Virus record (IMG/VR): IMGVR_UViG_3300032241_001390
Coordinates: 1 to 50,921 of that record
Length of the DNA stretch: 50,921 bases
Strand: one strand, 5' to 3'
DNA from: a virus
Numbering within the stretch: the first letter of the stretch is position 1; every line of letters begins with the position of its first letter. Positions 30,736-46,813 of the stretch are shown here, piece after piece. A model generated the notes under the pieces. It made no database searches and was not told the origin of the DNA. It saw nothing but the letters and a program-made list of their open reading frames with translations. The position numbers and the translations under genes were made by a program.

Positions 30736-32237
30736 GTGTTATTAACTTCTGATATTCTGTCTACTTCACTGCTATGATGTAACCCACCAACACTACGATG
30801 TTTTTCGTTGCGAATATAATTTTTTATTAAAATCTCACGAGCATATTCAGGTGACATCGGTAAATTTCTTGGAGCAACTGGAAATCCCATTTGTATTAAA
30901 ATAGAACTCCAATTTACTCCGTTAAAAATTGTATTAAATCTTCCTCTATAGGACAACGCATTAGTTGATTTTCCCACCAATGCTAAATGGTGTTTCATAC
31001 GTTCGCTTGGAACAAATTTATTTTTTACATAATTCCAAAACGGAGTTGTGCGTTCGTTACGATCATAATGAGCGGATACAAAATCTACACAATCCTCAAA
31101 ATACATTTTCATAGTTTGATTAAAATAATCTGTACTATTTTGATCGTAAAATTGTTCTCTAATTGCGTTATGTACTTGTGTTGCGCCAGTTGTAATTAAG
31201 GCAATACCTGTACTTTCTAAAGGTTCAATGAAGCCTGCGCTTAACCCAACTTGTACAACATTGCCTTTCCATTGATTATTATTATAAAAAGGAGTCCAGT
31301 CTATTACACGAACCTTGTCTTTGCTGATACGATTATTCCAGTAGTTGACAAAGTATTCTTTTGCTTCTTCAGGATCTGTAACATCTCTATTAAACACCAT
31401 ACCACTACCAATCCTACTACTTACTCCAATTTTCCAAATCCAGCCATGATCTACAGCATCACATTCAGCAAATGGTTTAAATTCTTTATCTCTATCTTGA
31501 TATGGAACAGGGCATACTACTGCTGTATTACAAAATAATCGTTCCATTAAATCAACACGGTCCCTATTAGGACTAAGCAAACTCTTGAATCCGGTACAAT
31601 CTATGTATAAATCAGCTTTAACTATTTGTCCATTTTTAAGTTCTAAATGATCGATATCGTCGTTTTCTTTGCGTACAATATCTACAACATCAGAACGAAT
31701 AATGTTTAGTCGATTAAATTGCGCCTCTGCTAATTTATCCTGTATATATTTTACCAATTTACCACAATCTACATGGTACCCGTAGTATCCTACATTTAAT
31801 AAAAACGGATCAACTTTATTTTCATATATAGAAGCGTCATAATTGCCCATGGTGTATTTTTTAAAATCAAGATCTTGATTTAAAGTCCACAAATCGTGTA
31901 CGTATACATCAATAGGATACTCGGCATCGGCAGGCAATACTTTATTGCCTTTATAAAAAGGATGCCATAGTTCATTACCCGGTTTAGTCCAGTTAGTAAA
32001 AAGAATTCCTGCTTTATAACCTGAATCAATTTTAGGAAACCACTCCTTAATATCGAACCCACACTCGTCTAAAAAATCTTTAAAATTAATTAAAGTAGCT
32101 TCTCCTACTCCGATAGGTGTACCTACTTCTTTATCAACAACTGTTACAACTAGTTCTGGATTATTTTTATGTAAGTATGCCGCAGTCATCCAACCGCTTG
32201 TTCCGCCACCTACAATTACTATATGTTCTACTTTCAT
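30732..32237 (-). CDS. Flavin-dependent (tryptophan-type) halogenase homologue H1
   Basis: A 501-residue protein, the length of PrnA/RebH-type halogenases, which use FADH2, O2 and halide to chlorinate or brominate aromatic substrates. Residues 8-16 carry the FAD dinucleotide motif (IVGGGTSGW) and 43-48 the second flavin motif (GVGEAT). K75 in GYKAGILFTNW aligns with PrnA catalytic Lys79. The GWIWKIG segment at 265-271 corresponds to W-x-W-x-I-P, but Pro is Gly here. E341-S-T-G aligns with the PrnA Glu346 halide/catalytic motif. Alone among the five homologues here it keeps E-S-T-G. Four-base overlaps join it to both unknown-function paralogues, so the three are probably made together. Substrate unknown. 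Confidence 0.85.
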   Translation of the reverse strand: MKVEHIVIVGGGTSGWMTAAYLHKNNPELVVTVVDKEVGTPIGVGEATLINFKDFLDECGFDIKEWFPKIDSGYKAGILFTNWTKPGNELWHPFYKGNKVLPADAEYPIDVYVHDLWTLNQDLDFKKYTMGNYDASIYENKVDPFLLNVGYYGYHVDCGKLVKYIQDKLAEAQFNRLNIIRSDVVDIVRKENDDIDHLELKNGQIVKADLYIDCTGFKSLLSPNRDRVDLMERLFCNTAVVCPVPYQDRDKEFKPFAECDAVDHGWIWKIGVSSRIGSGMVFNRDVTDPEEAKEYFVNYWNNRISKDKVRVIDWTPFYNNNQWKGNVVQVGLSAGFIEPLESTGIALITTGATQVHNAIREQFYDQNSTDYFNQTMKMYFEDCVDFVSAHYDRNERTTPFWNYVKNKFVPSERMKHHLALVGKSTNALSYRGRFNTIFNGVNWSSILIQMGFPVAPRNLPMSPEYAREILIKNYIRNEKHRSVGGLHHSSEVDRISEVNNT

Positions 32238-32977
32238 GATTTACCTCCAAACGGGCATTTACTTTTAGTTTGTTGTATTTTTTTAATTTTTTGATAAGAC
32301 GATAAAAAACTAGGCATTCCCGGTTCCATAATTCTAGATATATTTGCGTCGTCTTTGCCTATAAAATGCAATTTTATTTCAACTTCTTTATCTGACAACG
32401 GTACAAAATGTGCTAAAGGTTTGCCTGCCGGCCATTCATATCTTCTTTCGGGTAGTAAAAACGTATTTACATTTGTTGCGTGTTGGTAAGTAAAGTCAAT
32501 TATTCCTGGAGGAGTATGCATTCCTGTTATTTCATTAGGCATATTCCACGATGGTTGTAAAAATAAAAACTTAACTCCTGTTTTTTCTTGTATACGCCAC
32601 GGTGTGTGTATCTTAGCGTGTGTATATTTTTTAAATTCGTTGCCTCTTTGATTATCATCGTGATAACCTATCGATCCTGAACTATCAGCAAAATGATAAA
32701 CAAATCCTTTTTCGTCGGATTCTATAATTAAATCGGTCCACAACGGCATAACAAATCCGTGATTGTAAAGTCCTATTAATCCTTCGCAACGTTTCATAGT
32801 TCCACGAGGAATTCTTAAACCATGTTCATTTTCTGACATGTACATATTTGGTAAACTTTTCCACCAATCAGGTAAAAATCTACTAGCTTCTTTTATAGGA
32901 AAAAGCTCATAAGAATTAGGATGTGTTGTAAAACAATCTACAACAATTTTACTTCTTTTAAAAAATATATCAAACAT
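32234..32977 (-). CDS. Halogenase-island protein of unknown function, paralogue b
   Basis: A 247-residue protein starting DIFFKRSKIVVDCFTTHPN, followed by ASRFLPDWWKSLP, then RIPRGTMKRCEGLIGL and VMPLWTDLIIES. The C-terminal half has LFLQPSWNMP, TPPGIIDFTYQHATNVN, RYEWPAGKPLAHFVP and a terminal KCPFGG. The parallels with the protein at 30001-30735 make the pair paralogous although overall identity is low. I recall similar proteins beside phage halogenase genes (possibly DUF6065), unverified. The strand pattern suggests a beta-barrel. It overlaps the downstream halogenase start by four bases. Function unknown; a substrate-presenting partner of the halogenase is a speculation from coupling. Confidence 0.55.
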   Translation of the reverse strand: MFDIFFKRSKIVVDCFTTHPNSYELFPIKEASRFLPDWWKSLPNMYMSENEHGLRIPRGTMKRCEGLIGLYNHGFVMPLWTDLIIESDEKGFVYHFADSSGSIGYHDDNQRGNEFKKYTHAKIHTPWRIQEKTGVKFLFLQPSWNMPNEITGMHTPPGIIDFTYQHATNVNTFLLPERRYEWPAGKPLAHFVPLSDKEVEIKLHFIGKDDANISRIMEPGMPSFLSSYQKIKKIQQTKSKCPFGGKS

Positions 32978-32978
32978 A

Positions 32979-33566
32979 TTAGAGTCTCAAAAGTGCTAGT
33001 TTAAAAGTGTTTACATCACCGCTTAACCATGAATTAAATGCTATACTATATCGAACTGGAGTATTAGCATCTGCCGCTTCTACCTCGTGCTCCAGTTCAC
33101 TAGGCCACATTAATAACAACCCAGGTTCAGGCGCGATTTCCCATACTTCTGAATTAAAATAATTATAGTCAGTCATATCGTATTTGATTTGATTATATGA
33201 TCTGCGAACAAATCTAATCTTAGCAGGGTGATAATCAAAATACACACATCCACTTATTATACTATTAGCGTGTGAATGCCTTGGGTGAGCTTGAGCAGGA
33301 TAATTTTTATTAGCCACACTAGTAGTCATATTGATTTTACAGTCTGGACTTGCCCGTAGTTCTCGATAAAAAAACTGCTCCATATGAAACATGATTTGAG
33401 TTTTTAAAGATTGCCAAACAGTTTGATCCAGTAAAAAATTATCCCGACTCATGTGATGCCCATGACTCTCTTCCCAGTCGACGCTTTCTAAATTTGGACA
33501 AGAACTTACGTCTATTTTAGTAGAATAGACAGGAGTTGAAAATAAAGGTATAGTTACATAATCCAT
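32979..33566 (-). CDS. 2OG-Fe(II) oxygenase-like protein (2OG-FeII_Oxy_5 type) A
   Basis: A 195-residue protein starting YVTIPLFSTPVYS, the opening typical of the 2OG-FeII_Oxy_5 (PF13759-like) family. The metal-binding segment is H97-S-H99-A-N-S-x-x-S-G-C-V-Y-F; a distal H160 in ELEHEV and R172 in VRYSIAFNSW match the later His and the 2-oxoglutarate-binding Arg. A canonical H-x-D is not visible at the first position. It is the promoter-proximal gene of the minus-strand unit ending with halogenase H1, one base before the next gene. Target unknown. Confidence 0.7.
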   Translation of the reverse strand: MDYVTIPLFSTPVYSTKIDVSSCPNLESVDWEESHGHHMSRDNFLLDQTVWQSLKTQIMFHMEQFFYRELRASPDCKINMTTSVANKNYPAQAHPRHSHANSIISGCVYFDYHPAKIRFVRRSYNQIKYDMTDYNYFNSEVWEIAPEPGLLLMWPSELEHEVEAADANTPVRYSIAFNSWLSGDVNTFKLALLRL

Positions 33567-33621
33567 ATTAACTACTTATGATATTTTCAAGGGTGCCAGA
33601 ATATTTCATAAATAATCAACC
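33567..33621. promoter_or_regulatory. Divergent promoter gap 1
   Basis: Fifty-five bases separate two diverging units. On the plus strand CATAAATA (33607-33614) matches the T4 late box at 7 of 8; predicted transcription start is near 33620, two bases before the ATG, giving an essentially leaderless mRNA with no ribosome-binding site. No clear box is seen for the minus strand. Confidence 0.5.
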
Positions 33622-34203
33622 ATGATAATAAAAGATAACTTTTTGCCTAAACCATTATTTGATCAACTTCAGAATCAAGTATTGTCTGCAGATTTTCCCT
33701 GGTATTATTCTGCTCAAGTTTCTTTACCACCAGGCCAGTTTAATTTCTTAGATCCTTTAGCCAAAGAAACAGACGGTTTTAATCATAGAACATACGATAG
33801 AGAAGATTCAAACATGAGTTTTTTCTTTCAACAATGTAGGCCTTTTTTTGAATGTGTGGCTAGAGAATTTGGATATACTCATGAAAAATTAATCAGAGCT
33901 CGATTTAGCATGAAACATCCTAGAGTTGGCTGGAAAGAAGAATATTATAACTTGCCACACGTGGATTATTTTTATCCGCACGATACTATAATTTATTATC
34001 TCAACGATAGTGATGGCGACACACGAATTTTTGAAGAATTTTTTACTGGATTTCCTGAAAAAGATTTGTTTAAAACACAACAGCGTATAAAGCCAGTTGC
34101 TAATAGATTAGTACTATTTAACGGCCTTCAATATCACACTGCCGCGAATCCAATAGAAAGTACAAGACGTGTTATTTTTAATATTAATTTAGATCCATTA
34201 TGA
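33622..34203 (+). CDS. 2OG-Fe(II) oxygenase (prolyl-4-hydroxylase-like) B
   Basis: A 193-residue single-domain oxygenase with a complete facial triad: H113-V-D115 in LPHVDYFYPHDTIIYYLND, distal H172 in LQYHTAANP and R182 as likely 2-oxoglutarate-binding residue ten residues later. DSDGDTRIFEE after the first motif is the usual P4H-type strand. Its closest relative in the window is the minus-strand oxygenase at 39167-39817, sharing PHVD, YYxxDSDGDT and the FNGxxYHxxxxPI block. Such enzymes hydroxylate proteins or small molecules. First of four coupled plus-strand genes; its stop overlaps the next start (ATGA). Confidence 0.8.
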   Translation: MIIKDNFLPKPLFDQLQNQVLSADFPWYYSAQVSLPPGQFNFLDPLAKETDGFNHRTYDREDSNMSFFFQQCRPFFECVAREFGYTHEKLIRARFSMKHPRVGWKEEYYNLPHVDYFYPHDTIIYYLNDSDGDTRIFEEFFTGFPEKDLFKTQQRIKPVANRLVLFNGLQYHTAANPIESTRRVIFNINLDPL

Positions 34204-34829
34204 TAGTAGACAATTTATTTCCAGTACCAATAGCAACTATAATGATCGAAGAAGAGATCATAGACAACACCATGAATAAACTAAAAGAGTTTTTAATGGA
34301 CGAAAATAATAAAAAATATGTATCAAGAAGACCAGATGAAGGCAGTCTTCTTACTACATATTATGCCGATGATAAACAGGATTTACTTGGCAAGTTAAAT
34401 GATAAAATGTTAATGGCTGTAATTAATGACGAAGCTAGGCAATTTTTAAAATTGCTAGGTATAGACCCCGAATGTCACGTTAATATTACAACATGGATGC
34501 AGCTAAATCCGCCAGGTTCGCTATTTAACAAACACGAACATTTTGGAGCATTGTTAAGCGGAGTGATTTATTTAGACGTTGCTGATAATTGTGGAGATTT
34601 AACTTTCTTTAATCCTGTTCCATTAAAAACACAAAATTTAGCCTATGTTAATCGAGTATTAAAACAAGACGGCAATTTTTATAATTTTGAAACAGTTAAA
34701 TTTACTCCCAAGAAAGGCAAGATGATTATGTTTGAATCATATTTGCAACACGCTGTGGGTGTTAACTTATCTAATAAAGATAGGTTTGCTATTTCATTTA
34801 ATATACAGGTAGCGCCAAATGAATGTTGA
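34200..34829 (+). CDS. 2OG-Fe(II) oxygenase-like protein (2OG-FeII_Oxy_5 type) C
   Basis: A 209-residue protein opening VDNLFPVPIATI. It has a family-typical W...NPPGSLFNKH112-E-H114-FGALLSGVIYL core, CGDLTFFNP, then a FTPKKGKMIMFESYLQH184AVG block with distal His and R195 in DRFAISFNI. The first motif is H-x-H rather than H-x-D, so the carboxylate ligand cannot be assigned by eye. The reading frame overlaps both neighbours (4 and 11 bases), indicating tight co-translation. Activity and substrate are not predictable from sequence. Confidence 0.7.
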   Translation: MIVDNLFPVPIATIMIEEEIIDNTMNKLKEFLMDENNKKYVSRRPDEGSLLTTYYADDKQDLLGKLNDKMLMAVINDEARQFLKLLGIDPECHVNITTWMQLNPPGSLFNKHEHFGALLSGVIYLDVADNCGDLTFFNPVPLKTQNLAYVNRVLKQDGNFYNFETVKFTPKKGKMIMFESYLQHAVGVNLSNKDRFAISFNIQVAPNEC

Positions 34830-35403
34830 AATGTGGTTTCCCGTAAGTATCTATAGTGAAAAAGAATTGTTTTCAGCTGAACAAAATAAACTATGGACTG
34901 ACTATATACTAAATTTAAAAACTACAGTACCTAGCGCACATAATAACTGGCAAGGCGGTACATACACTACGCATGAATCTAGAGAATATTACCTTAAATC
35001 GGACCCTATGTTTGCCTCACTAGTAGAAAAAATTACTGATCGTGTAAATTCATTTGCTAGAAAACATGGATGCGATGGTATATATGAATGTCAACACGCA
35101 TGGATAAATGTTGCCGACAGTAATAATTTTCAAGAATTTCACACACATAACGGAAGTATTTTTAGTCTAGTATACTATGTTTCTGCGCCAGAAGGTTCTG
35201 GACGAATTTTATTTGAAGATCCTAAAGAACCCGATATGATGCCTTTAAAGAGTATCAAACATGATAGTCCATTAAGTTATCAGCGTATACACTATAAAGC
35301 AGAAGAAGGATGTGTTATTATTTTCAGATCTTATCTTAGACACATGGTAGAGCCTGGTACAAATATCACTCCTAGAATATCTATATCAATGAATTTTGGC
35401 TAG
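34819..35403 (+). CDS. 2OG-Fe(II) oxygenase-like protein (2OG-FeII_Oxy_5 type) D
   Basis: A 194-residue protein starting EMWFPVSIYSEK. The core is W-I-N-V-x7-Q-E-F-H108-T-H110-NGS, followed by LVYYVSAPEGSGRILFEDP, EEGCVIIFRSYLRH175 and R186-ISISMNFG. This is the best match in the window to the PF13759 pattern. As in its relatives, the first motif is H-x-H. The start overlaps the preceding gene by 11 bases. Probable iron/2OG enzyme of unknown target. Confidence 0.72.
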   Translation: MNVEMWFPVSIYSEKELFSAEQNKLWTDYILNLKTTVPSAHNNWQGGTYTTHESREYYLKSDPMFASLVEKITDRVNSFARKHGCDGIYECQHAWINVADSNNFQEFHTHNGSIFSLVYYVSAPEGSGRILFEDPKEPDMMPLKSIKHDSPLSYQRIHYKAEEGCVIIFRSYLRHMVEPGTNITPRISISMNFG

Positions 35404-35404
35404 T

Positions 35405-36031
35405 ATGTTTAATTTATTTGAGCTTAATGACAATCTTGATATTAAAACTGAAATATTTGATAATTCTAAAATCTATATAATAGACGATTTTTACAAATAT
35501 CCGGATGAAATAGCCGCTCACTTGTTTATAGATGTGCCGGCTAAATTGTGGAAAGCAGAAGACCGCCCATCGTTTAATGGCGAACATTTTATTGATCAGC
35601 GACACGATTTTAAAGATACTGGAGTTGTTGACGCTGAAAAATTATTATCTAATTTGTGCGGACAACCAATTAGTAGTTCTGAAAAAATAGTTACAAACTG
35701 TATACAACTTTTTAACAAGGAATTTAATGATTATAAAAATAATTATTGGTGCCCGCATACTGATTATGGGTATAACGGCATTGTATACTTAAATACTTTT
35801 GATTTTCTAGGCACTAATTTATACGAACAAATTGATAGAGACATAAACAATACTCCTGAACATTACGCTCCTTGGAGATCTCGTAGCAAATATCGTGTAA
35901 TTAAAACACTAGAAGCAAAATTTAATCGTTTAGTTTTATTTGACGGTGCTCATTTTATACACGGAATGAGTATAGAAGATGATACTTTTTTTAATCTAAA
36001 GAGGATTAATCAAGTATTTTTCTTTAATTAG
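35405..36031 (+). CDS. DUF6445-type 2OG oxygenase-like protein E
   Basis: About 208 residues from ATG 35405; a TTG at 35396 would add three residues, but it overlaps the previous stop and lies outside the conserved start. The pattern C-P-H118-T-D120-YGYNGIVYLN, then GTNLYEQ, PWRS, FNRLVLFDGAHFIHGMSI (H183 or H186) and R-I-N-Q-V-F-F-F matches what I recall of DUF6445, a 2OG-oxygenase-like family found beside tryptophan halogenase genes in Proteobacteria. H-x-D, distal His and late Arg are all present. It closes the plus-strand unit; its stop overlaps that of the convergent halogenase H2 by four bases. Confidence 0.7.
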   Translation: MFNLFELNDNLDIKTEIFDNSKIYIIDDFYKYPDEIAAHLFIDVPAKLWKAEDRPSFNGEHFIDQRHDFKDTGVVDAEKLLSNLCGQPISSSEKIVTNCIQLFNKEFNDYKNNYWCPHTDYGYNGIVYLNTFDFLGTNLYEQIDRDINNTPEHYAPWRSRSKYRVIKTLEAKFNRLVLFDGAHFIHGMSIEDDTFFNLKRINQVFFFN

Positions 36032-37494
36032 TGTTCGCCTCGACGAATCATACCGATAAATTCTCTATGAGTATACATTGGTTCATTATTGTGTTTATTA
36101 TGTATAAAATTAAACACATGCTCGCCATATCTCTTAATTTCAGGATTCATCATATCCCACTCACGTTTAATTAAGTCTGTATCAAAGAAATCCAACCCGT
36201 ACAAAATCTGTGAAAAATTTCCAGCCTTAAACATAGTATACATAGTCTGGTAACTAAAATCATCGGTCATTGGAAGATTCTTTTTCCAACGTTGTAACAA
36301 TGTTTGTAAAGTGTCTGGCAATTCTATATTTGATACATCTTTCCAAAATGGTGTATTAGTTTTATCTGTAAGATAATGCAATATTACAAAATCTCTAATA
36401 TTAGTTAATATATCAGTTGCGGCTTTATTATACGTTTCTATAGTTTGCTCATCATAATTAGGCAATCTATGCATTAGTAAAAATATTTGTCGTATGCTAC
36501 TACCAATACTAGTAGCTTCTAAGGGCTCTACAAAACTAGCACTGAGTCCGCAAGCACAACAATTTTTAATCCATACACGATCTAAAGCACCTGGATCAAA
36601 ATCAATCTGTTTTCCTACTGTTATTTCTCTGCCTAAAAATTCTTCAACTTCTTGTTTGGCCTGCTCTGCTGTGATATAATCACTGTCAAAGATATAGCCG
36701 TTTCCGCTACGACCCCAAACTGGAATATTAAACATCCAACCATAATCCATTGCTTGGGCAGTTGTATACATTTTTAATTCTTCTTCTTCGGGTAAAGGAA
36801 AAACAATAGCCGATTTAACTTTTAACCATTGACTATAACTTTGCCATTTAGCACCCATTTTAGATATCAATACACGTCTCATGCCTGTGCAGTCGATATA
36901 AAAGTCTGAAGCATAGTGTCCGTTTTCACCGATAAGGTCTACAATTTCTCCTTGATCGTTAAACACTATATCTTTTATCTCATCATCTATTACATCTATA
37001 CCACGTGCTAGAGCAATATTAGTTAAAAAATCATTTAATTTTTGAGTATTAAAATGATATTGATTAAAAGGCGGCCATGTCTGCTGAGTATCTTTTACAA
37101 ATATCTTATTATCCCAGTTACCTGCCGGATTTAAAAATTGTTTAGGAAGATTTTCACCAATGACTTTATTGTATATGAATAACGATTCGCCGTTTTTCTT
37201 TTCAAGGTCAGGACTGGTACTGTGCATGTAGTCATCTTTACTCCAACCTTTAAACATAATACCGGCTTTAAATGTAGCATCGCAGGCTCGTATACATTCT
37301 TGATAGCTAACACCAATGTAGCTCATGAATTCGTTCCAATGTTCGGTACTGCCTTCTCCGACCCCAATGGTACCAATTTTAGTAGAACGAACTACTTCGA
37401 TTTTCATATGTGGGAATCGAATTTTTAAAATTAAAGCGGATACAAAGCCTGCTGTTCCACCGCCTACTACTGATATTTTTTCTAGTTTATTCAT
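36028..37494 (-). CDS. Flavin-dependent halogenase homologue H2
   Basis: A 488-residue tryptophan-halogenase-type flavoprotein. VVGGGTAGF (9-17) and GTIGVGEGST (41-50) bind flavin; K76 in ATFKAGIMFKGW aligns with catalytic Lys79 of PrnA. The W-x-W-x-I-P motif reads WMFNIP (second Trp is Phe), followed by GYIFDSDYITAEQA. The Glu motif is E326-A-T-S in place of E-S-T-G, so the Glu and the Thr are kept while Ser is Ala. It is transcribed alone as a single-gene minus unit, divergent from oxygenase F. Substrate and halide preference unknown; halogenation itself is inferred from family membership. Confidence 0.82.
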   Translation of the reverse strand: MNKLEKISVVGGGTAGFVSALILKIRFPHMKIEVVRSTKIGTIGVGEGSTEHWNEFMSYIGVSYQECIRACDATFKAGIMFKGWSKDDYMHSTSPDLEKKNGESLFIYNKVIGENLPKQFLNPAGNWDNKIFVKDTQQTWPPFNQYHFNTQKLNDFLTNIALARGIDVIDDEIKDIVFNDQGEIVDLIGENGHYASDFYIDCTGMRRVLISKMGAKWQSYSQWLKVKSAIVFPLPEEEELKMYTTAQAMDYGWMFNIPVWGRSGNGYIFDSDYITAEQAKQEVEEFLGREITVGKQIDFDPGALDRVWIKNCCACGLSASFVEPLEATSIGSSIRQIFLLMHRLPNYDEQTIETYNKAATDILTNIRDFVILHYLTDKTNTPFWKDVSNIELPDTLQTLLQRWKKNLPMTDDFSYQTMYTMFKAGNFSQILYGLDFFDTDLIKREWDMMNPEIKRYGEHVFNFIHNKHNNEPMYTHREFIGMIRRGEH

Positions 37495-37523
37495 GCGTTT
37501 GATCTGTGTTTATAAATATTGCC
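37495..37523. promoter_or_regulatory. Divergent promoter gap 2 with perfect late box
   Basis: Only 29 bases separate halogenase H2 (minus) and oxygenase F (plus). TATAAATA at 37511-37518 matches the T4 late consensus exactly on the plus strand; with T4 spacing, transcription starts at 37524, the A of the oxygenase ATG, so the mRNA would be leaderless. Because TTTATAAA is self-complementary, the minus strand carries the near match TATAAACA for the halogenase. Confidence 0.6.
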
Positions 37524-38141
37524 ATGAACGAAATCATTGAATCTCCAATGTTCCTGTCATCTTGTTTTATTACTTATGCTACGGACATTGACAACAAAAA
37601 AATTATACAAAGTATTGAAGAAATACAACGTACACAGCCTTCTAATCATCGAAGTAATTCGGGAGGATTCCAGTCTTTTACTATAAAACGACCCGAATAC
37701 GACAACGATGAAACAGCTAAATTGTTTGAAACTTTGATAATTCCCATGGCAAAACAAATTGCTAGAGATGTAAAATATCCAGATTCTATGGATAGAGTGT
37801 GTTATTGGTATAATGTAAATTACAAATACAGCTATAATACAATACATTCGCATCCTAACTCTTATTTGTCAGGCGTCTATTATATGCGAGTTCCAAAAGA
37901 TAGCGGAAAGTTAGTATTTAACAGGGCCGAAAACGAAATAGATCGTATGAGTTTTATACTAGATAAATGTGTAAAAGAAGGCCATCAAATTGATAATATT
38001 CGAGTAAACACTGAACACTGGGTGATACCTGAAGAAAGTAAATTAGTTATGTTTCCCGGACATTCTAATCATTATGTCGAGCAAAATTTGACTAATGAAG
38101 AAGATTCTAGAAGAATTTCGTTATCCTTTAACTTCTTCTAA
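37524..38141 (+). CDS. 2OG-Fe(II) oxygenase-like protein (2OG-FeII_Oxy_5 type) F
   Basis: About 205 residues. The ATG at 37524 is preferred over GTG 37506, because the latter lies upstream of and would read through the late promoter box. The core is W-Y-N-V-N-Y ... N-T-I-H108-S-H110-P-N-S-Y-L-S-G-V-Y-Y-M, SGKLVFN, then PEESKLVMFPGHSNH183 and R-R-I-S-L-S-F-N-F-F (R196/R197). Again H-x-H at the first site. No ribosome-binding site is seen, fitting leaderless initiation. The 3' end overlaps the convergent fusion gene by 21 bases. Confidence 0.7.
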   Translation: MNEIIESPMFLSSCFITYATDIDNKKIIQSIEEIQRTQPSNHRSNSGGFQSFTIKRPEYDNDETAKLFETLIIPMAKQIARDVKYPDSMDRVCYWYNVNYKYSYNTIHSHPNSYLSGVYYMRVPKDSGKLVFNRAENEIDRMSFILDKCVKEGHQIDNIRVNTEHWVIPEESKLVMFPGHSNHYVEQNLTNEEDSRRISLSFNFF

Positions 38142-39170
38142 TTTATTTTTATAGTCGATAACTTCTTGATCAGAAGCAAAATCTCTAAATTTTTCCTCAA
38201 GAACATTGGCATAAGCAATAGTAATTAATTCAATATCTTTACAAGCTGGATCTAATAGTTCCTTATCTCTGTCAGTTAGACTACAGAATCTATGAACTAC
38301 AGCTTCTGCTTTTTCGCCAATTACATTTTGTAATATTTCTCTGTCTTTAAAAAACCCTTCTATAAATTCGGTGCCGTAAGCAGAATGAAATAATCCAGCA
38401 AGACAAATATATAAAGGTTTATTTTGATTTTTTAATATTTTATATGTATTATAGCAATGATTAAAGAACGTACCTCCACTATGATTCATACCTTGTGTGT
38501 AATTTGCTAAAAAAGCAATAGCTTCTTTTTCAAAATCAGATATATCTACTTTATGATTAATAAATGTATCTGCTATAGGAAAATCTGCTCTGTAATTTTC
38601 ATGATACTTAGAAGAAAATTTCATTGTAAAAACAAATCTAAATTCTGGAGCAGTGAACGAAGGTTGTGAACTCTTGTGAGGGATTGTAGCTGAAAATAAT
38701 ACAATTCTACCAGGTATAAAAGCAGAACTATATACAAGTTCCCGAGAGTGCGGATCGGCAAAATGTGTTTCTCCCTCCCAGTGCTGTTCCCATTTACAAT
38801 TAAAATAATACAATAAAGATATATCTTCATGTACTGAACTATCTGTATGATAATGATATATGTCTTGAGCAGTTGATAGATTAATGTATACACGATGTAA
38901 TCTAAGATTCTTTTCAATAATTTCTTGTTTTATAGGATCAGTAGCAGGTCCTTCAAAAAAGTTTGACCATAATAGATCGTACACACTATAATCGCTTTTA
39001 AGACTTTTAAATTGCTCGGTTACAGGCACGGTATGTGCAGCAGTTCTGTCTAAAGTATATTTAGATCTACGAGCCATTTCGTACAAATGGCTCATATCAG
39101 AGTATGGAAATACGTCGTCGTAAATTTTAATAAATTTGCCGTCTTCTAACTCTATCTTTTTATATTTCAT
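38121..39170 (-). CDS. Fusion: 2OG-Fe(II) oxygenase plus HD-like DUF6817-type domain
   Basis: A 349-residue two-domain protein. Residues 1-190 are an oxygenase: H108-T-D110 in YHYHTDSSVHED, ISLLYYFNCKW, ETHFADPHSRE, distal H165 in ATIPHKSS and R178 in EFRFVF. Residues about 205-330 match what I recall of DUF6817, an HD-superfamily-like domain: HSGGTFFNHCYNTYKIL (H230, H238), then CLAGLFHSAYGTEFI (H262-S263), and GEKAEAVVHRFCSLTDRD. HD-like proteins bind metals and include phosphohydrolases and mixed-valent di-iron oxygenases; which applies is unknown. It overlaps the preceding oxygenase gene by four bases and is the last gene of the H4-H3 unit. Confidence 0.75.
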   Translation of the reverse strand: MKYKKIELEDGKFIKIYDDVFPYSDMSHLYEMARRSKYTLDRTAAHTVPVTEQFKSLKSDYSVYDLLWSNFFEGPATDPIKQEIIEKNLRLHRVYINLSTAQDIYHYHTDSSVHEDISLLYYFNCKWEQHWEGETHFADPHSRELVYSSAFIPGRIVLFSATIPHKSSQPSFTAPEFRFVFTMKFSSKYHENYRADFPIADTFINHKVDISDFEKEAIAFLANYTQGMNHSGGTFFNHCYNTYKILKNQNKPLYICLAGLFHSAYGTEFIEGFFKDREILQNVIGEKAEAVVHRFCSLTDRDKELLDPACKDIELITIAYANVLEEKFRDFASDQEVIDYKNKLEEVKG

Positions 39171-39817
39171 AATGTCTCAAAATCAAAATTAATTACTATT
39201 CTTGTGCTGTATTTTATAGGATAATTTCCAGCATGGTATCTGTGCCCATTAAAAAATAATCCCACACCTTTTTTCGGAGTAACACGCAACAATTCAGTTA
39301 ATGGTTCTTCGAATAACGGATTAAATGGACCTTGGGATGTTTCATACATTTTATCGAATAAAATTGTATCACCATCGCTATCATCTACATAATATACTAA
39401 TGTAGAGTACGGAGCAGACGTACTAAAATCTACGTGAGGTGCCGCGTACTTTGTATCATCGTGCGCTATACTAGGATGTGTATATCTTAATCGAATACGC
39501 ATCAATTTTCCTATTTTAATTCCAGTTTTTTCTGAAAAGAATTCTAATACCATCCTAAAAAAATCAAAATGTACTGATTTAGGTTCAGAGTCAAATGCTA
39601 AATGATATAGCCCTACATCATCTGTGATATTTTTATCAGGATATACTGGAGTTGTTCCCCTTGGAAATGCTAATGGATTACCTACTCTGTGAATAGTAAA
39701 CCAGGGAAAATAATTTTCTCCTTGTAATTTATCAATTATGCCGTCTTGAAAACTTTTAGGAATAACGTTTTCTATAATCAAAATCTCATCGGCGATATTA
39801 GATATTTTATAATCCAT
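39167..39817 (-). CDS. 2OG-Fe(II) oxygenase (prolyl-4-hydroxylase-like) I
   Basis: A 216-residue oxygenase with a full triad: H128-V-D130 in AAPHVDFSTSAPYSTLVYYV, DDSDGDTILFDK, H195 in GHRYHAGNYPIKYS and R206 in TRIVINFDF. It is the closest relative of oxygenase B (33622-34203), from which it differs in orientation and in an extended loop between the metal motifs. Overlaps of 11 bases with halogenase H3 upstream and 4 bases with the fusion downstream show translational coupling. Confidence 0.8.
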   Translation of the reverse strand: MDYKISNIADEILIIENVIPKSFQDGIIDKLQGENYFPWFTIHRVGNPLAFPRGTTPVYPDKNITDDVGLYHLAFDSEPKSVHFDFFRMVLEFFSEKTGIKIGKLMRIRLRYTHPSIAHDDTKYAAPHVDFSTSAPYSTLVYYVDDSDGDTILFDKMYETSQGPFNPLFEEPLTELLRVTPKKGVGLFFNGHRYHAGNYPIKYSTRIVINFDFETL

Positions 39818-41354
39818 TTTTTGCCCTAATATTTCTAAAATATTCTATAAATTCTTTATATGTAGCGTGTTGTTTACTTTCTCTAATAAACTGGTCTTGA
39901 CTATTATAATAAAACTGAGCGGCTATATTACTTAGCGGAGCATCTTCTCCGGGCACTATCATATTAATTTCTTGTTTTGCTATATCTTTATCTATATGGC
40001 CAATACCATTTAACACCCAGGACCATAATGACCATCCGGTGCCTCCCCAGTAATCAGGAAAATCTCGTAATGTAGGAATTCTCGATTTAAGCATTTCTAA
40101 TCGATCAGCAACATAATCAGTCTTAGTTACACCAGTGCCAATATATCTCCAAAATTCACTATCATCTCTTCCACCCATATAGTGTGCGTTTACAAAATTC
40201 ATGAATTCATCGTGTGTATACGCACATCTTGCGTTGTAAGTATTCATGCTTCCCGTGTTTACTGTTTGATCCATTGTAGGTTTTAAATATTCGAATACAA
40301 AGTTTTTAAGAGTTACAATAGTACCATGAATACTAGTAGCTTCTAACGGCTCGATAAATGACGCAGACAGCCCGATAGCAAGGCAGTTATTAACCCATTG
40401 TTTTTCCTGTCTTCCTGATTCAAACTTAATAAGTTTAACTGGTTCTATCTCACACCCTAATGTTTGTTCTATCTCAGCATGAGCTTGATCAGGAGTTGTA
40501 AAACTATCACAAAATACATATCCACACCCGAGCCTATCCATCAAAGGAATTTGCCACATCCAACCGCATTTTTGTGCCCAAGCATGAGTCCAAGGAGCAG
40601 GAGTTTCACCTTCTTTGTATTTTAATAAAAATGGCATTCCTGTATTAATAGGAAGATGCTTCCTGTAACTAACCCAACTGTTAGGCATCTTACTCATTAA
40701 TAATCTAGAAAGCCCTGTACAGTCAATAAAAAAATCGCCTTCTACGTTAGTGCCATCGGTTAATGTTACACTTTTAATGAACCCATTTTCGCCAACATTT
40801 ACATTAGTAATTTTATTGTCTATATGTTTAACATACGGGCTCTTGAGACATATTTTTTTAAAATATTTTCCAACTAAGTGAGCATCTACGTGCATGGCGT
40901 GACGAATATCTTCAAATTTTCCCTTGTTTAAATCAAAGTTAGAAAGCCCGTTATTAATCCAATAGCCTAATCTAGAAAGTTTAATAAGATCTTTATCTGA
41001 CAAATTGTTTACACCCCATGAAAACAAAGCATCGGGTGTACTAGTAGCAGTAGCAGTACCGTCCAAAGGAGCAATATAAGATTGATTTATATCCTTAGTC
41101 CAACCTGTATGTTTAATGGCGTATTTTAATGTAGCACCAGTTTCTGCTATGAACTCTTCATGATCACAACCGAAATCCCACAGATGATTTGTTAATATGT
41201 CGGTGAATACTCCTGTAGTACTTTCTCCTACACCTACTACTGGAATTTCGGAAGTTTCAATAACCGTTACATTGTGTTCGCCGGGTCTGTATTTGCTAAC
41301 AAACAAAGATGCTAGCCAACCTGCTGTGCCTCCTCCGACAATTACTATGTTCAT
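39807..41354 (-). CDS. Flavin-dependent halogenase homologue H3
   Basis: A 515-residue halogenase-type flavoprotein. IVGGGTAGW (5-13) and VGVGESTTG (40-48) are the flavin motifs; K77 in ATLKYAIKHTGW aligns with catalytic Lys79 of PrnA. The W-x-W-x-I-P motif is intact (GWMWQIP) and is followed by GCGYVFCDSFTTPDQA. The catalytic Glu motif is E338-A-T-S. It overlaps the upstream halogenase H4 by four bases (ATGA), so two full-length halogenases are translated in tandem from one mRNA, possibly with different regioselectivity or as a heteromer. Substrate unknown. Confidence 0.84.
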   Translation of the reverse strand: MNIVIVGGGTAGWLASLFVSKYRPGEHNVTVIETSEIPVVGVGESTTGVFTDILTNHLWDFGCDHEEFIAETGATLKYAIKHTGWTKDINQSYIAPLDGTATATSTPDALFSWGVNNLSDKDLIKLSRLGYWINNGLSNFDLNKGKFEDIRHAMHVDAHLVGKYFKKICLKSPYVKHIDNKITNVNVGENGFIKSVTLTDGTNVEGDFFIDCTGLSRLLMSKMPNSWVSYRKHLPINTGMPFLLKYKEGETPAPWTHAWAQKCGWMWQIPLMDRLGCGYVFCDSFTTPDQAHAEIEQTLGCEIEPVKLIKFESGRQEKQWVNNCLAIGLSASFIEPLEATSIHGTIVTLKNFVFEYLKPTMDQTVNTGSMNTYNARCAYTHDEFMNFVNAHYMGGRDDSEFWRYIGTGVTKTDYVADRLEMLKSRIPTLRDFPDYWGGTGWSLWSWVLNGIGHIDKDIAKQEINMIVPGEDAPLSNIAAQFYYNSQDQFIRESKQHATYKEFIEYFRNIRAKNGL

Positions 41355-42898
41355 ACAGTTTCCTTATAAATGTTTTTTGCTAAGAATTCATACATAGTAG
41401 GAGCATCTTTAGCCAATTCTTTCCAAGACAATTTATTGTTATTAGGAATTAAAAATTCTTTGTAATCTCTAGCACCGGGATTATACGCTCTGAGAGTAAT
41501 TATGTCGCAGGGATTATAGCCCATGCCAGCTCCGATACAATTCATTCCGCCAAACGTATCTGGCATAGCAAAATCATTATATCTTGCTATGGCATTTTTT
41601 TTGAATTCGTCTACTAAACTTGTTTGAAAAGTAGGTAATGTTTCTGAATAGCATCTTCTAAGATTAGCTCTCCAGTATTCTGTATCGTCACGAACGCTCA
41701 GTGCGTAGTGCATAGCAACGAATTCTGTGAATTCTCTAAAATTCTTTTTACAAGCAAGATTAAACGAGTCTATTTCAAATCGGCCAACACGTTCTCTCGA
41801 TAGTGCTCTTACGATATGTGTTAAAAACCTATGAACGGTATACAAACCATTAGATTCTAGGGGTTCAATGAACCCTGCGCTAAGGCCTATTGCACATACG
41901 TTCTTCACCCAAATGCGCTCGTGCATTCCTATACGCATTGTAATGTCTTTAAATTCTAAGTTAGAAGTATCAAAACCTTTACTATTCAAATGATCAACAA
42001 ATTCTTGTTTAGCATCTGCTGGAGTAGTATACTTGTCACTATACACATACCCTGTACCAATTCGGCTCCATAGAGGTATATTCCATACCCAACCATTTCC
42101 CAGTGCTGTACAATTTGTAAACGGCTCTACTTGATTTGGTTTATCTGTATACTGTACCTTTGTCGCCCACGCACGGTTATTAGGCAGTATGTCTGAAAAA
42201 CTGTTAAACGGCTCTTTAATAGTCTTGTCTAACAACAAACTCTTAAACCCAGTACAATCGATATACAGATCACCAGTTACAGTAGTACCATTTTCTAATA
42301 AAAGATCAGTCACTCCATTTTCGTCAGAGTTAATGTTTACAACATTAGATTGTATAAAATTAAAATTATCTTCTTCACAAAATTTTCTAAGCCATATAGC
42401 AAACTTTGCCGCATCGAAGTGAAATGCAACATGGTGTAGCGTTGTTTCGGGCAATTTTTTAATAGTTTCTTTACAGAACTTGTTATCGTTAACTAATGCC
42501 ATTAAAGGATAATATTCTTCAGCAAATTCGCTATTAGGAGTTTCTGGCATCAGAGCCTTTTTAACGTGCCAGTCGTTCATTCCGACTTTAGTACCTTTTA
42601 GATATGGTACTCCAAAAGGATAATGGAATCCTCCATCACCATTTTTATAAAAATTTTCAAACCTAATACTTAGTTTATAGGTAGAATCACACGCTTCCAT
42701 GAAGTCTGTATCTTTAATGCCCAATAATGTTAACCAATCTTGTATTCCACCGATCGTACTTTCTCCCACTCCTACGGTAGGAACGTCAGGGCTTTCGATT
42801 AGTGTAACTTTTTTGTAAGGAAACAAGTGTACAAAAGTTGCGGCGCTCATCCATCCCGCACTTCCGCCTCCTACTATAACAATATTATCGATTTTCAT
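41351..42898 (-). CDS. Flavin-dependent halogenase homologue H4
   Basis: A 515-residue halogenase-type flavoprotein, first gene of the minus-strand unit H4-H3-oxygenase I-fusion. IVGGGSAGW (8-16), VGVGESTIGG (42-51) and K75 in STYKLSIRFENF fit the PrnA-type scaffold. GWVWNIP is an intact W-x-W-x-I-P motif, followed by TGYVYSDKYTTPADA. The Glu motif is E348-S-N-G: Glu and Ser kept, Thr changed to Asn. An AGGA site precedes the ATG on the minus strand. It shares its length with H3 but differs clearly in sequence, so the pair is an old duplication or two separate acquisitions. Confidence 0.84.
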   Translation of the reverse strand: MKIDNIVIVGGGSAGWMSAATFVHLFPYKKVTLIESPDVPTVGVGESTIGGIQDWLTLLGIKDTDFMEACDSTYKLSIRFENFYKNGDGGFHYPFGVPYLKGTKVGMNDWHVKKALMPETPNSEFAEEYYPLMALVNDNKFCKETIKKLPETTLHHVAFHFDAAKFAIWLRKFCEEDNFNFIQSNVVNINSDENGVTDLLLENGTTVTGDLYIDCTGFKSLLLDKTIKEPFNSFSDILPNNRAWATKVQYTDKPNQVEPFTNCTALGNGWVWNIPLWSRIGTGYVYSDKYTTPADAKQEFVDHLNSKGFDTSNLEFKDITMRIGMHERIWVKNVCAIGLSAGFIEPLESNGLYTVHRFLTHIVRALSRERVGRFEIDSFNLACKKNFREFTEFVAMHYALSVRDDTEYWRANLRRCYSETLPTFQTSLVDEFKKNAIARYNDFAMPDTFGGMNCIGAGMGYNPCDIITLRAYNPGARDYKEFLIPNNNKLSWKELAKDAPTMYEFLAKNIYKETV

Positions 42899-42946
42899 TT
42901 ATTAGTCCTGTGCTTGTTGCAAATGTTAAATATTTAACTAAAAAAT
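42899..42946. promoter_or_regulatory. Divergent promoter gap 3 with palindrome
   Basis: Forty-eight bases separate halogenase H4 (minus) from oxygenase J (plus). The perfect 14-bp palindrome GTTAAATATTTAAC (42925-42938) puts a GTTAAATA element, two mismatches from TATAAATA, on each strand, so it could be a symmetric late promoter or an operator. Confidence 0.4.
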
Positions 42947-43540
42947 ATGACCACAGAAAATAATTCATTCATCGAACTAGGGTATCTTGAAAATCCGGCT
43001 ATTTGTGATCTTTTGATTAATTTACACAAACAAAGTGATAGCAAAGGTCCGCCTTATTTTGTTGCTAATGGAGTTAACGTAAAATGCGATCCTTCCAAAA
43101 AAGATTCTACAGATTTTACAGTTTACAACCATAATGAATATGAAGAAATTAAAGTTTATATAGAACAATTGCAAGTTTTGGTAGAAAAATATATCGAAAA
43201 ATACAAATATTGTAACAGCGGTAATCCGTGGGCTATTATAGAACCTATTAATATACAACACTACGCTCCTGGACAAGGATATCATGCTTGGCATTATGAA
43301 AGAACTACTAATGACTTGCCATACGCTACAAGACATTTAGTTTTTATGACATATCTTAATGATGTTACAGATGCTGGAGAAACTGAATGGTTTTATCAGA
43401 ACTTAAAAATTCAACCAAGGAAAGGCTTAACTGTGCTATGGCCGGTTGACTGGACGCACACTCACCGAGGTGTAACTTCACCTACACAAGAAAAATACAT
43501 CATAACAGGATGGTTTAATTACATGGATAACACAAAATGA
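42947..43540 (+). CDS. 2OG-Fe(II) oxygenase J
   Basis: A 197-residue oxygenase. The metal motif is H116-Y-E118 in GYHAWHYERT (H-x-E variant), followed by RHLVFMTYLNDVTDAGETEW, the usual P4H-type strands. The distal His is H171 or H173 in DWTHTHRGV, and K183 in QEKYIITGWFNY stands where Arg usually binds 2-oxoglutarate; Lys occurs there in some families. It begins the second plus-strand unit and overlaps the short halogenase H5 by four bases, an intimate oxygenase-halogenase coupling. Target unknown. Confidence 0.78.
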   Translation: MTTENNSFIELGYLENPAICDLLINLHKQSDSKGPPYFVANGVNVKCDPSKKDSTDFTVYNHNEYEEIKVYIEQLQVLVEKYIEKYKYCNSGNPWAIIEPINIQHYAPGQGYHAWHYERTTNDLPYATRHLVFMTYLNDVTDAGETEWFYQNLKIQPRKGLTVLWPVDWTHTHRGVTSPTQEKYIITGWFNYMDNTK

Positions 43541-44727
43541 AAAAAGTAGCAGTAATCGGAACTGGAACAAACGGCATAACTTCTTTAGCGCATTTACTTG
43601 CGTGGCTGCCACCAGATGAATGGCAGGTAGTATCTATATACGATCCAAAAATTCCTATGTTAGGCATAGGAGAAACAGCAACATCATCTGTTCCCCAGGC
43701 ATTGTTCTACGGTGCCGGCCTAAACTTCTTTACAGATACAGACGAACTGGACGTTACAATTAAACAAGGGACAAAGTACACTAATTGGCGAGATAAAGAA
43801 CACATGGCTGTGTTCCCAGTTCCTAATTATGGAATACATTTTAATAATTTTAAATTAAAAGATGTATGTTTTCCTAGATTTAAAAAGAAATGGGGCAATA
43901 AGTTTGTATCTATAGAAGGAACGTTATCGGATATTCAAAATTTGCCCGATAAAGTTACTTGTAAAGTCGATGATGTTGAATATGAATTTGATTATATTGT
44001 AGATTGCGGCGGCTACCCTACTAACTATGACGAGGATTATATAACTGTTGATACTATCCCTGTCAATCATGCCTTGATTAATATGGTTCAAACTCCAGGA
44101 GATTGGAACTATACACATCACTGGGCACATCCTAATGGTTGGATGTTTGGTATTCCTTTAAAAACACGTCAAGGATGGGGATACTTGTACAATGATAAAA
44201 TTACTTCTAAAGAAGAAGCAATAAAAAACTTTAGTGAAATTAGAGGCATACCAGCAGATAAACTAATCACCAATGAATTTGCCTTTAAAAATTATAAAGC
44301 TAAGAAATTTATTGATAACAGAATTGTTAAAAACGGTAACAAAGCATTATTCTTTGAACCAATCGAAGCGTTAGCTGGCTGGTTTTATGATCAGATATTA
44401 AGAACATGGTTTGATTATGCTGTAATTAATAAGTTTACAGAAGAGCAAGCTAATGCCAACTTACACGATTTTGCGGTAGATCATGAACTAGCAATATGCT
44501 ACATTTATCACGGAGGTTCTACATTTGATTCTGAATTTTGGAAAACCACTGTAGAAAAATGTAGTAAAAAACTAGCAACTAGCGATAAGTGGAAATTTAA
44601 TTTAGAAGTATTAAAAAAAGTTAAGCCTGAATTGTACGCAAGTGCGCCGGCAATATACCCGTTTCCATATGCAGTTTGGAACCACTTTGACGAAGGGTTA
44701 GGTTACAATTATTTTTCGACCAAGTGA
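43537..44727 (+). CDS. Short flavin-dependent halogenase homologue H5
   Basis: A 396-residue protein, about 100 residues shorter than H1-H4. The flavin motif is V-I-G-T-G-T-N-G (6-13), with a single rather than triple Gly start; LGIGETAT (42-49) is the second motif. K76 in TIKQGTKYTNW aligns with PrnA Lys79. W-x-W-x-I-P reads WMFGIP. The Glu motif is E277-A-L-A, so both halide-contacting Ser and Thr are absent. Phage halogenases of this family are known (VirX1 of a marine cyanophage was reported to iodinate varied substrates), but whether this short form is active cannot be judged here. The C-terminal substrate-binding region is reduced. Confidence 0.72.
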   Translation: MKKVAVIGTGTNGITSLAHLLAWLPPDEWQVVSIYDPKIPMLGIGETATSSVPQALFYGAGLNFFTDTDELDVTIKQGTKYTNWRDKEHMAVFPVPNYGIHFNNFKLKDVCFPRFKKKWGNKFVSIEGTLSDIQNLPDKVTCKVDDVEYEFDYIVDCGGYPTNYDEDYITVDTIPVNHALINMVQTPGDWNYTHHWAHPNGWMFGIPLKTRQGWGYLYNDKITSKEEAIKNFSEIRGIPADKLITNEFAFKNYKAKKFIDNRIVKNGNKALFFEPIEALAGWFYDQILRTWFDYAVINKFTEEQANANLHDFAVDHELAICYIYHGGSTFDSEFWKTTVEKCSKKLATSDKWKFNLEVLKKVKPELYASAPAIYPFPYAVWNHFDEGLGYNYFSTK

Positions 44728-44766
44728 AAAATTGAATAAGTATAGTTATATTTTTAGGAGTGCCCA

Positions 44767-45387
44767 ATGGCTAACAATGACGGATTAACATTAGATTCTA
44801 GCGATAATTTTACTGAATCTACAGATTTATCAAATACTAAACTAGCAACTTTAGATATTTTATCAATAAACAAAGCAGATATATTTACAGCAGACGATTG
44901 CGATAAAATTATAAAAAGCTGTATAGAAGAACTATGGTTGTCTTCTAAAGTGATTGGAGATAAAAAATTACACGCATCTAAACGTCAAAAATTGCGCGGA
45001 GAAGTCGAAGGATTTCCATTCGAACCAATTAGATCAATTACTAAATCAGCAAATGACCAAATTTATGATTTTAAATTGCTAGGAATTATTGATCAAGATT
45101 TTCCACAAGTGTTTAAGTATGAGGAAAAAGATCATTATGATTGGCATATTGAGCTAACTCCTGTAGCTCCTTCGAGAAAACTTACATTTATTGTAAATTT
45201 GTCAGATCCTTCGACGTATGAAGGCGGGCAACTTGAATTTTTAAATACAGAAACAGATCCTGTATTGATGAATTCACAAGGAGGATGTGTTGTATTTCCT
45301 TCGTTCTTATCTTATAGAATTAAACCAGTTACAAAAGGTACAAAGTATATCATTATTGGAAATGTACACGGAGCATTATTTAGATGA
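44767..45387 (+). CDS. 2OG-Fe(II) oxygenase-like protein K lacking the distal His
   Basis: A 206-residue protein with a polar N-terminal 30 residues, then a PKHD/PiuC-type oxygenase domain: W-H127-I-E129 in YDWHIEL, LTFIVNLSDPSTYEGGQLEF and VVFPSFLSYRIKPVTKGTKY. In relatives this last block is FPS-x-x-x-H-x-V-T-P-V-T-x-G-x-R-Y; here Y183 stands in the iron-ligand His position and K193 in the Arg position. The adjacent gene L keeps both. K may be catalytically dead, or a partner subunit of L. Preceded by TTTTTAGGAG. It overlaps L by four bases. Confidence 0.75.
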   Translation: MANNDGLTLDSSDNFTESTDLSNTKLATLDILSINKADIFTADDCDKIIKSCIEELWLSSKVIGDKKLHASKRQKLRGEVEGFPFEPIRSITKSANDQIYDFKLLGIIDQDFPQVFKYEEKDHYDWHIELTPVAPSRKLTFIVNLSDPSTYEGGQLEFLNTETDPVLMNSQGGCVVFPSFLSYRIKPVTKGTKYIIIGNVHGALFR

Positions 45388-46187: not shown

Positions 46188-46792
46188 TATTACCAGAACA
46201 ATTTAAAGAAAACAAGTACTTAGATCTTAAAAGTGTTATAACCAAAGATATTTGTAAAATTGTGACCAAATATGCGTTGCTACAAGAAGTAACTGAATTT
46301 GATCCCGAGTTAGGCGAAACTGCTCAAGTAGCAAACGCACATTCTAAGTACGCCGATACTTTAATGGAAACGTTGCTTCATTTTTTACAACCTATAATGG
46401 AAAAAAATACAGGCTTAGAATTGTGCCCTACATATAGTTATTATCGTGTATATCACCCAGGGATGACCTTAGCTCACCATATAGACCGTCCTAGTTGTGA
46501 GATAAGTACTACTGTATGTTTTGGTATAAACTATACAGATACTGACCCAGATTATAGATGGGGAATGTACGTAGATTCTGGTATTTTATGTAAACAAGAT
46601 CCGGGCGATATTATTGTTTATAGAGGCTGTGACGTAGATCACTGGCGTGACGAGTTCAAAGCCGGCCCAGGAAGCTATCAAGTACAAGGTTTTTTCCATT
46701 ATATAAATAAAGACGGTCCGTACTATCCAGCGTATGCCTATGATAAACGCCCCGGTTTAGGATATAAAGATTCAAACAGGCTAAATAACTAA
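46178..46792 (+). CDS. 2OG-Fe(II) oxygenase M
   Basis: About 204 residues from ATG 46178, chosen because TAGGAA lies five bases upstream; a TTG six codons earlier is less likely. The metal motif is H101-I-D103 in LAHHIDRPSCEIS, followed by a W-G-M-Y-V-D strand and PGDIIVYRGCDVDH155W with the distal His. The usual Arg is not found in its expected place (SYQVQGFFHY), so the 2-oxoglutarate anchor is uncertain. It overlaps gene L by ten bases and is the last gene of the island, 21 bases before the tail assembly chaperone, which is on the same strand. Confidence 0.72.
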   Translation: MAIILPEQFKENKYLDLKSVITKDICKIVTKYALLQEVTEFDPELGETAQVANAHSKYADTLMETLLHFLQPIMEKNTGLELCPTYSYYRVYHPGMTLAHHIDRPSCEISTTVCFGINYTDTDPDYRWGMYVDSGILCKQDPGDIIVYRGCDVDHWRDEFKAGPGSYQVQGFFHYINKDGPYYPAYAYDKRPGLGYKDSNRLNN

Positions 46793-46813
46793 TAATGGAT
46801 TTGGAGAAAAACA

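Follow-up and report, generated by a model that had tools for sequence, protein, structure and literature searches.

A 2OG-Fe(II) oxygenase fused to a DUF6817 domain of predicted RelA/SpoT-type HD fold in a relative of cyanophages: a candidate two-domain modification enzyme

In the PhnY/PhnZ and TmpA/TmpB systems a 2-oxoglutarate (2OG) oxygenase works with an HD-fold protein, the two partners being separate proteins whose substrates are small phosphonates; SmaX, the partner of the oxygenase SmaO, is perhaps an HD-domain protein. YhhC (NCBIfam family NF041706) is a 2OG oxygenase of cyclophane peptides. According to the accessible part of PMC8177086, phosphatases of the HD superfamily carry the metal motif H...HD...D and oxygenases the motif H...HD...H...H...D, and the dyad Asp bridges both irons in MIOX, PhnZ and TmpB. 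Two-step peptide chemistry also exists, since the accessible part of PMC13097080 reports a cascade in which two oxygenases, SmaO and SmaX, turn Asp through hydroxy-Asp into aminomalonate. The literature searched, whose coverage takes in few subscription journals, has no mention of DUF6817, nothing relevant on fusions of HD-domain and 2OG proteins or on phage halogenases together with tail fibres and hydroxylation, and no description of the activity of FlmC.

The stretch of DNA analysed here (the window) is a complete IMG/VR virus record of 50,921 bases, possibly a fragment of a larger genome, and its nearest named relatives are cyanophages. It encodes tail-type proteins, a tail assembly chaperone and a GroEL-like chaperonin (47325-48992, Cpn60_TCP1 E 2.9e-72), and the region 5767-25093, upstream of Gly-rich tail-type genes, contains two ORFs of great length (2801 and 3623 aa). 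A gene at 38121-39170 had been described, in a sequence-only reading, as a fusion of a 2OG-Fe(II) oxygenase to an HD-like DUF6817-type domain. We confirm it as a single frame carrying both parts, the first recognised by its fold, and the residues that had been named (H108, D110, H165, R178, H230, H238 and the CLAGLFHSAYGTE block) are all in place. The gene, its two domains, the oxygenase residues and the genes upstream are as follows.

38121..39170, minus strand: 2OG oxygenase-DUF6817 fusion gene, 349 aa (uninterrupted frame; Pfam; AF2 pLDDT 86.7, pTM 0.79)
38586..39170, minus strand: N-terminal 2OG-Fe(II) oxygenase domain, residues 1-195 (VIA Z and Pfam, 103-171)
38841..38849, minus strand: H108-x-D110, presumed two ligands of the 2OG iron site (invariant in 20 rows of alignment A4)
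38676..38678, minus strand: H165, presumed third iron ligand (at least 90% of A4 rows)
38637..38639, minus strand: R178, expected 2OG carboxylate anchor (at least 90% of A4 rows)
38124..38537, minus strand: C-terminal DUF6817 domain, residues 212-349, predicted RelA/SpoT-type HD fold (Pfam 225-298, at 38277-38498; AF2; VIA Z 14.8 to 7qod)
39167..39817, minus strand: 2OG-like gene (phrog_274), upstream of the fusion gene (4-bp overlap with the fusion gene, ATGA)
39807..41354, minus strand: flavin-dependent halogenase-like gene (Pfam Trp_halogenase E 6.9e-92; 11-bp overlap with the next gene)
41351..42898, minus strand: another halogenase-like gene, which opens the run of four overlapping genes on this strand (Pfam Trp_halogenase E 3.3e-107)

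By its motifs and predicted fold the N-terminal domain is a prolyl-4-hydroxylase-class 2OG-Fe(II) oxygenase, with an HxD...H triad and a distal Arg on the double-stranded beta-helix of the predicted model; we take H108, D110 and H165 to be the iron ligands, and the role of R178 is the one expected from knowledge of the family. The Pfam model 2OG-FeII_Oxy_3 (PF13640) scores 26.8 bits over residues 103-171 (E 1.1e-5), a little short of its cutoff of 27. The best NCBIfam match is the FlmC family (NF052475, E 6e-22), of which the domain is not a member because its 78.5 bits stand against a cutoff of 240. When the model of the domain was used in structure comparison, the best row was OGFOD1 (Z 16.5, 3.1 A, 178 aligned), and PHD2 (Z 16.1), PolD (Z 15.8), which acts on a free amino acid, and a Pseudomonas prolyl-hydroxylase solved with EF-Tu (Z 15.7) were also matched. 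The fold matches together with the similarity to the FlmC family make the 2OG assignment secure.

The fusion occurs at full length in three more viral contigs (L018, L019 and L021, at 75%, 58% and 51% identity; contig L020 repeats L019), each with the preceding 2OG gene and the halogenase gene(s) in the same order as in the window. Against these homologues the dN/dS of the DUF6817 part is 0.16, 0.25 and 0.38, and the C-terminal part is under purifying selection; the dN/dS of the 2OG part is 0.25 and 0.28 against L019 and L021, synonymous sites being saturated against L018. We consider the fusion real because of the full-length homologues with conserved gene order and the C-terminal dN/dS of 0.16-0.38.

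The fusion gene is the last in the run of four overlapping minus-strand genes (two halogenase-like, one 2OG-like and the fusion), which belongs to a larger cluster at 30001-47266 with five Trp_halogenase-match genes and nine 2OG Pfam matches at E up to 0.01, the fusion included; additional 2OG-like genes found by other means bring the 2OG-type total to about a dozen. The cluster sits between the Gly-rich tail-type genes and the tail assembly chaperone, a gene order common to L018-L021. NCBIfam gave nothing more on the role of the halogenases. Two cluster genes, at 30001-30735 and 32234-32977, have no Pfam match at E 0.01, and the second is kept in L018 and L019. The family phrog_274 and several cyanophage records label the type of 2OG-like protein encoded at 39167-39817 as 'DNA endonuclease V', a label that seems to be an error copied from record to record; according to the accessible part of PMC2984593, cyanophage genomes lack denV.

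A profile search for DUF6817, proposed along with the sequence-only reading, matches PF20680 at residues 225-298 with 69.8 bits, above the cutoff of 25.2 (E 2.2e-19). The fold predicted for this domain is that of the RelA/SpoT-MESH1 hydrolases. The AF2 model of the domain alone (pLDDT 93.1; mean of the full-length model 86.7) fits Rel proteins and small alarmone hydrolases, 7qod with Z 14.8 and 2.6 A over 135 of 150 residues and human MESH1 with Z 13.1; its structural neighbours are hydrolases that bind (p)ppGpp, NADPH or PAPS. Foldseek E-values for the same model are modest (best 8e-3). The window protein alone, as a sequence query against the PDB, returned nothing below E 0.8, and a profile of 97 members found Lmo0812 (4yf1) at E 6e-5 and Rel proteins at E 0.014 and weaker. 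Alignment by hhalign to 11 RSH HD domains gave E 1.3e-5 and a probability of 80.6, and 50 of the 97 members had a Pfam HD_4 match with an E-value no higher than 1 (1.6e-7 for the best). The helical fold of the HD superfamily is thus found by AF2 model, structure comparison and hhalign; what had been called HD-like does have the HD fold, but one of RelA/SpoT type in which the Asp of the HD dyad is replaced by Ser.

The frequency with which DUF6817 is paired with 2OG oxygenases was examined in surveys of domain architecture, as had also been suggested. The first surveys used the fused protein as seed and took the best 80 of 467 and the best 80 of 168, and the resulting 160 loci were clustered at 85% identity into 96 clusters (43 viral, 53 bacterial or archaeal), with adjacency counted on the same strand. 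Among the viral clusters, drawn from these best-scoring loci, 16 have the order 2OG-DUF6817, 9 the order DUF6817-2OG, 15 are adjacent and 3 unlinked, so that the pairing recurs in 40/43 non-redundant loci and is a fusion in 25/43. A second viral survey, seeded with bacterial DUF6817 copies lacking a 2OG partner and limited to the best 80 of 449, gave 32 clusters, of which 27 are linked (6 fused, 21 adjacent, 5 unlinked); here adjacency was accepted on either strand, ten loci are shared by id with the first surveys and some further contigs recur under new ids. Around the viral copies 2OG genes fill 36/83 places at positions +-1 versus 54/279 at +-2 to +-5; the corresponding bacterial figures are 6/104 and 0/304.

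The 53 bacterial and archaeal clusters comprise 3 of 2OG-DUF6817 order, 1 of DUF6817-2OG order, 6 adjacent and 43 unlinked by the same profiles, and at least 13/53 are linked once L127 (JmjC fused), L154 and L175 (TauD adjacent) are added. About 40/53 show no 2OG partner at the locus by profiles and Pfam neighbour scans, and DUF6817 can therefore work without one in bacteria and archaea. The Pfam/NCBIfam neighbour scans (A5) covered 36 neighbours of unlinked bacterial clusters plus two DUF6817 proteins, admitting same-strand genes of at least 90 aa within 250 bp; ten similar Achromobacter/Roseomonadaceae-type clusters were represented by L117 alone, and of three TauD neighbours counted, two were placed at loci (those of L154 and L175). 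In the maximum-likelihood tree 7 changes are required for the 2OG-DUF label, of which starred branches force at least 3, and 4 for the DUF-2OG label, all of them forced in this way; such changes may be gains or losses.

The partners are of several types: FlmC-like (the window, L098, L143, L103, L177 and L130), YhhC (L167), 2OG-FeII_Oxy_5 (L068), JmjC (L127), TauD (L154, L175) and phrog_274-type (L042, L026). In the Dyadobacter locus L167 (3171-6712) the fusion lies between genes for a YhhB-like radical SAM maturase and an aKG-HExxH peptide beta-hydroxylase, and its 2OG half scores 155.5 against the cutoff of 150 for YhhC; a 103-aa ORF at 2816-3127 may, as a guess of ours, encode the precursor peptide. 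Plasmids of Paraburkholderia fungorum and Polaromonas have a 2OG gene overlapping the DUF6817 gene, the 2OG proteins being 20-22% identical to the window N-domain and retaining the HxD motif. On plasmids of Vibrio coralliilyticus and Klebsiella (L012, L013) two NRPS genes flank DUF6817, TauD lies downstream and a phenylacetate-CoA ligase gene is also present, and in a Myxococcales protein (L127, 4716-6512) DUF6817 shares one chain with a JmjC_2 domain. Because the same two parts recur in viruses and bacteria, whether as fusions or as adjacent genes, they probably act as one chemical-modification tool, and because DUF6817 pairs with several 2OG types in both fusion orders, its function would be a common need of those oxygenases. 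The earlier suggestion that the two parts act on one substrate is likewise supported by fusion and adjacency recurring in both domain orders.

We favour, with a probability of roughly 40%, a two-domain modification enzyme whose first domain hydroxylates a polypeptide and whose DUF6817 domain acts on or holds the same substrate. From its fold and its RiPP relative, the N-domain would use Fe(II), O2 and 2OG to hydroxylate a protein or peptide residue, and DUF6817 may then work on the same hydroxylated site, whether it catalyses a second step or keeps hold of the substrate. The target probably also meets the two halogenase-like enzymes and the other 2OG-like enzyme, since the fusion gene is the last of four overlapping genes, and the tail proteins encoded beside the cluster are candidate substrates. 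The nearest folds of the N-domain, the protein hydroxylases OGFOD1, PHD2 and the EF-Tu prolyl-hydroxylase, speak for this proposal; against it we count that PolD is matched about as well as they are, that the window protein is far below the FlmC cutoff, that viral contexts are mixed and that bacterial copies without a 2OG partner occur. A bolder version, which we hold to be doubtful, is that DUF6817 is the first RelA/SpoT-type HD fold to serve as a dedicated partner enzyme of 2OG oxygenases, performing a common second step on residues hydroxylated by several unrelated 2OG kinds in a widespread two-step protein or peptide module of marine phages and bacterial RiPP/NRPS clusters.

A tail-fibre target was considered as a general rule and rejected because the viral contexts are mixed; it is a candidate for this phage group only. 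When 123 viral neighbours, hand-picked mostly from 159 collected, were scanned with PHROGs, halogenases (8), clamp loader (6) and ribonucleotide reductase (5) led, and no tail family was among the 25 listed; Gly-rich ORFs (>16% Gly, at least 120 aa) occur in only 12/43 viral loci. In Marine virus AG-345-L05 (L007, 3788-7693) two 2OG-type genes lie no more than about 2 kb beyond the gene of a collagen-like GxKGxKG / GNDGTPG protein, which is a natural candidate for a hydroxylated tail fibre. In S-SSM7 (L016, 3345-4399) the upstream gene with which DUF6817 overlaps resembles a cupin on inspection by eye and is possibly another non-heme iron partner.

The residues of the DUF6817 pocket are listed here.

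38481..38483, minus strand: H230, conserved His at an Arg/Lys position of alarmone hydrolases (His in 96/97; alignment to 4yf1)
38457..38459, minus strand: H238, equivalent of the first HD-domain metal His (97/97; alignments to RSH proteins)
38382..38387, minus strand: H262-S263, the HD dyad, in which Ser stands for Asp (Ser in 97/97, where the search pattern required S or G; aligned to RSH HD domains)
38205..38207, minus strand: N322, where the HD domain has its last Asp (Asn in 66/97, Asp in 25/97, gap in 6/97)

The CLAGLFHSAYGTE block spans residues 256-268, and its His is H262, the third conserved His. The 97 members were collected with the pattern GL[FYV]H[SG]xY, which imposed H, S or G, and Y at the dyad region, so that only the choice of Ser over Gly is informative there. 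That residue 322 corresponds to the last HD Asp is our own reading of the motifs (A-[ND]-x-x-E versus LADRLHN). The other near-invariant positions are R277 (96/97), E289 (97/97) and R301 (91/97). The conserved H230, H238, H262-S263, R277, E289 and N/D322 look like a re-tooled pocket, whose strict conservation suggests a putative working site, non-canonical for the HD fold. Residue 322 is Asn in all 49 2OG-linked members that have a letter in alignment A3, and all 25 Asp members are unlinked, as are 17 further members with Asn, there being 6 gaps overall. We rejected N/D322 as a marker of 2OG pairing, as shared ancestry may explain the pattern: no more than 4 N/D changes are required on the tree, and significance is out of reach of the independent-pairs test.

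The same residues bear on the alternative, somewhat unlikely in our view, that DUF6817 is a non-catalytic or regulatory partner: its metal site gone, it would bind the substrate or make the oxygenase more stable, in the manner of RiPP partner proteins. The dyad Asp is lost in all 97 members (S or G being imposed by the pattern), and L143 has a weak match to ApyI, a RiPP partner (E 0.0017); partner-dependent RiPP enzymes do exist, according to the accessible part of PMC13097080. Yet near-invariant polar positions such as H230, H238, R277, E289 and R301 are more characteristic of an active site than of a docking surface, and stand-alone DUF6817 copies occur without any 2OG partner.

The nature of the fold neighbours raises a second and less probable alternative, in which a nucleotide-binding RelA/SpoT-type domain is joined to an oxidising 2OG domain and the module modifies nucleotides or nucleic acid. 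It is kept because viral neighbours elsewhere are nucleotide-metabolism and replication genes, namely those for ribonucleotide reductase, thymidylate synthase and the clamp loader, with a stand-alone DUF6817 near nrdA/nrdB in P-TIM68. The neighbours in fold bind (p)ppGpp, NADPH or PAPS, and DNA repair was once proposed for cyanophage 2OG proteins, as the accessible part of PMC3037559 states. The HDxxED hydrolase motif, of which HD and ED are invariant in 11 RSH sequences, is nevertheless HSAYGT at residues 262-267 of the window protein, the N-domain has a prolyl-hydroxylase type of fold, and NRPS and RiPP genes are found near bacterial copies.

A di-iron oxygenase of the MIOX/PhnZ type is disfavoured, and so is a plain alarmone hydrolase, since neither set of metal ligands is present: the H...HD...D motif has become H238...H262-S263...N322, and for H...HD...H...H...D the dyad is without Asp and a single His (H293) stands between H262 and N322 where two are needed. 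The sequence-only reading had offered an HD-domain di-iron oxygenase as the second centre, and on this point it is not supported, PhnZ reaching Z 7.4 versus 14.8 for the alarmone hydrolases. The clustering of metal ligands, which that reading had set as a condition, was judged by homology. A PhnY/PhnZ-like route, in which 2OG hydroxylation of a small molecule is followed by C-C or C-X cleavage at a di-iron HD site, has the same logic of pairing a 2OG with an HD oxygenase, with PhnZ and TmpB (Z 6.3) among the fold matches and the SmaO/SmaX cascade as a precedent; the alarmone hydrolases, however, are far closer in fold, and with the ligands unmatched we judge this route improbable and keep it as a working analogy. 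Drawdown of host 2-oxoglutarate was proposed for cyanophage 2OG genes (PMC3037559, accessible part). That the gene is an ordinary auxiliary 2OG enzyme of this kind, with an incidental second domain, is scarcely credible here, as it leaves the recurrent pairing with one specific domain and the purifying selection on the C-terminal part unexplained.

DUF6817 offers a concrete handle on the numerous 2OG oxygenases and halogenases, of obscure target, that are encoded by marine T4-like phages. The preferred two-domain modification enzyme would show an alarmone-hydrolase fold in a role with a broken HD dyad, and the bacterial RiPP and NRPS examples put the question within reach of standard heterologous expression.

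When the known systems are set beside the window fusion, the FlmC family is the best curated match of the N-domain. YhhC is linked through the Dyadobacter fusion, whose DUF6817-fused 2OG domain passes the YhhC cutoff; it differs in that the window N-domain has no YhhC match and the 182-position YhhC model holds no DUF6817. In the cyanophages S-RIM50 and ACG-2014g a 2OG-like gene lies, as in the window, directly upstream of the DUF6817 part, overlapping a stand-alone DUF6817 gene by 4 bp beside tail-fibre and Gly-rich genes, but these are two genes and the 2OG protein is of the phrog_274 type, 13-17% identical to the window N-domain. MESH1, RelA/SpoT and the small alarmone hydrolases have their fold in common with DUF6817, which differs from them in its HS dyad, in HSAYGT for HDxxED and in Asn for the last Asp. 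PhnY/PhnZ and TmpA/TmpB likewise combine a 2OG oxygenase with an HD-fold protein, whereas their di-iron ligand set is absent from DUF6817. We class the gene as a variant of the 2OG-plus-HD-fold tandem, composed of a 2OG oxygenase and DUF6817, and place it outside both the RSH hydrolases and the HD di-iron oxygenases.
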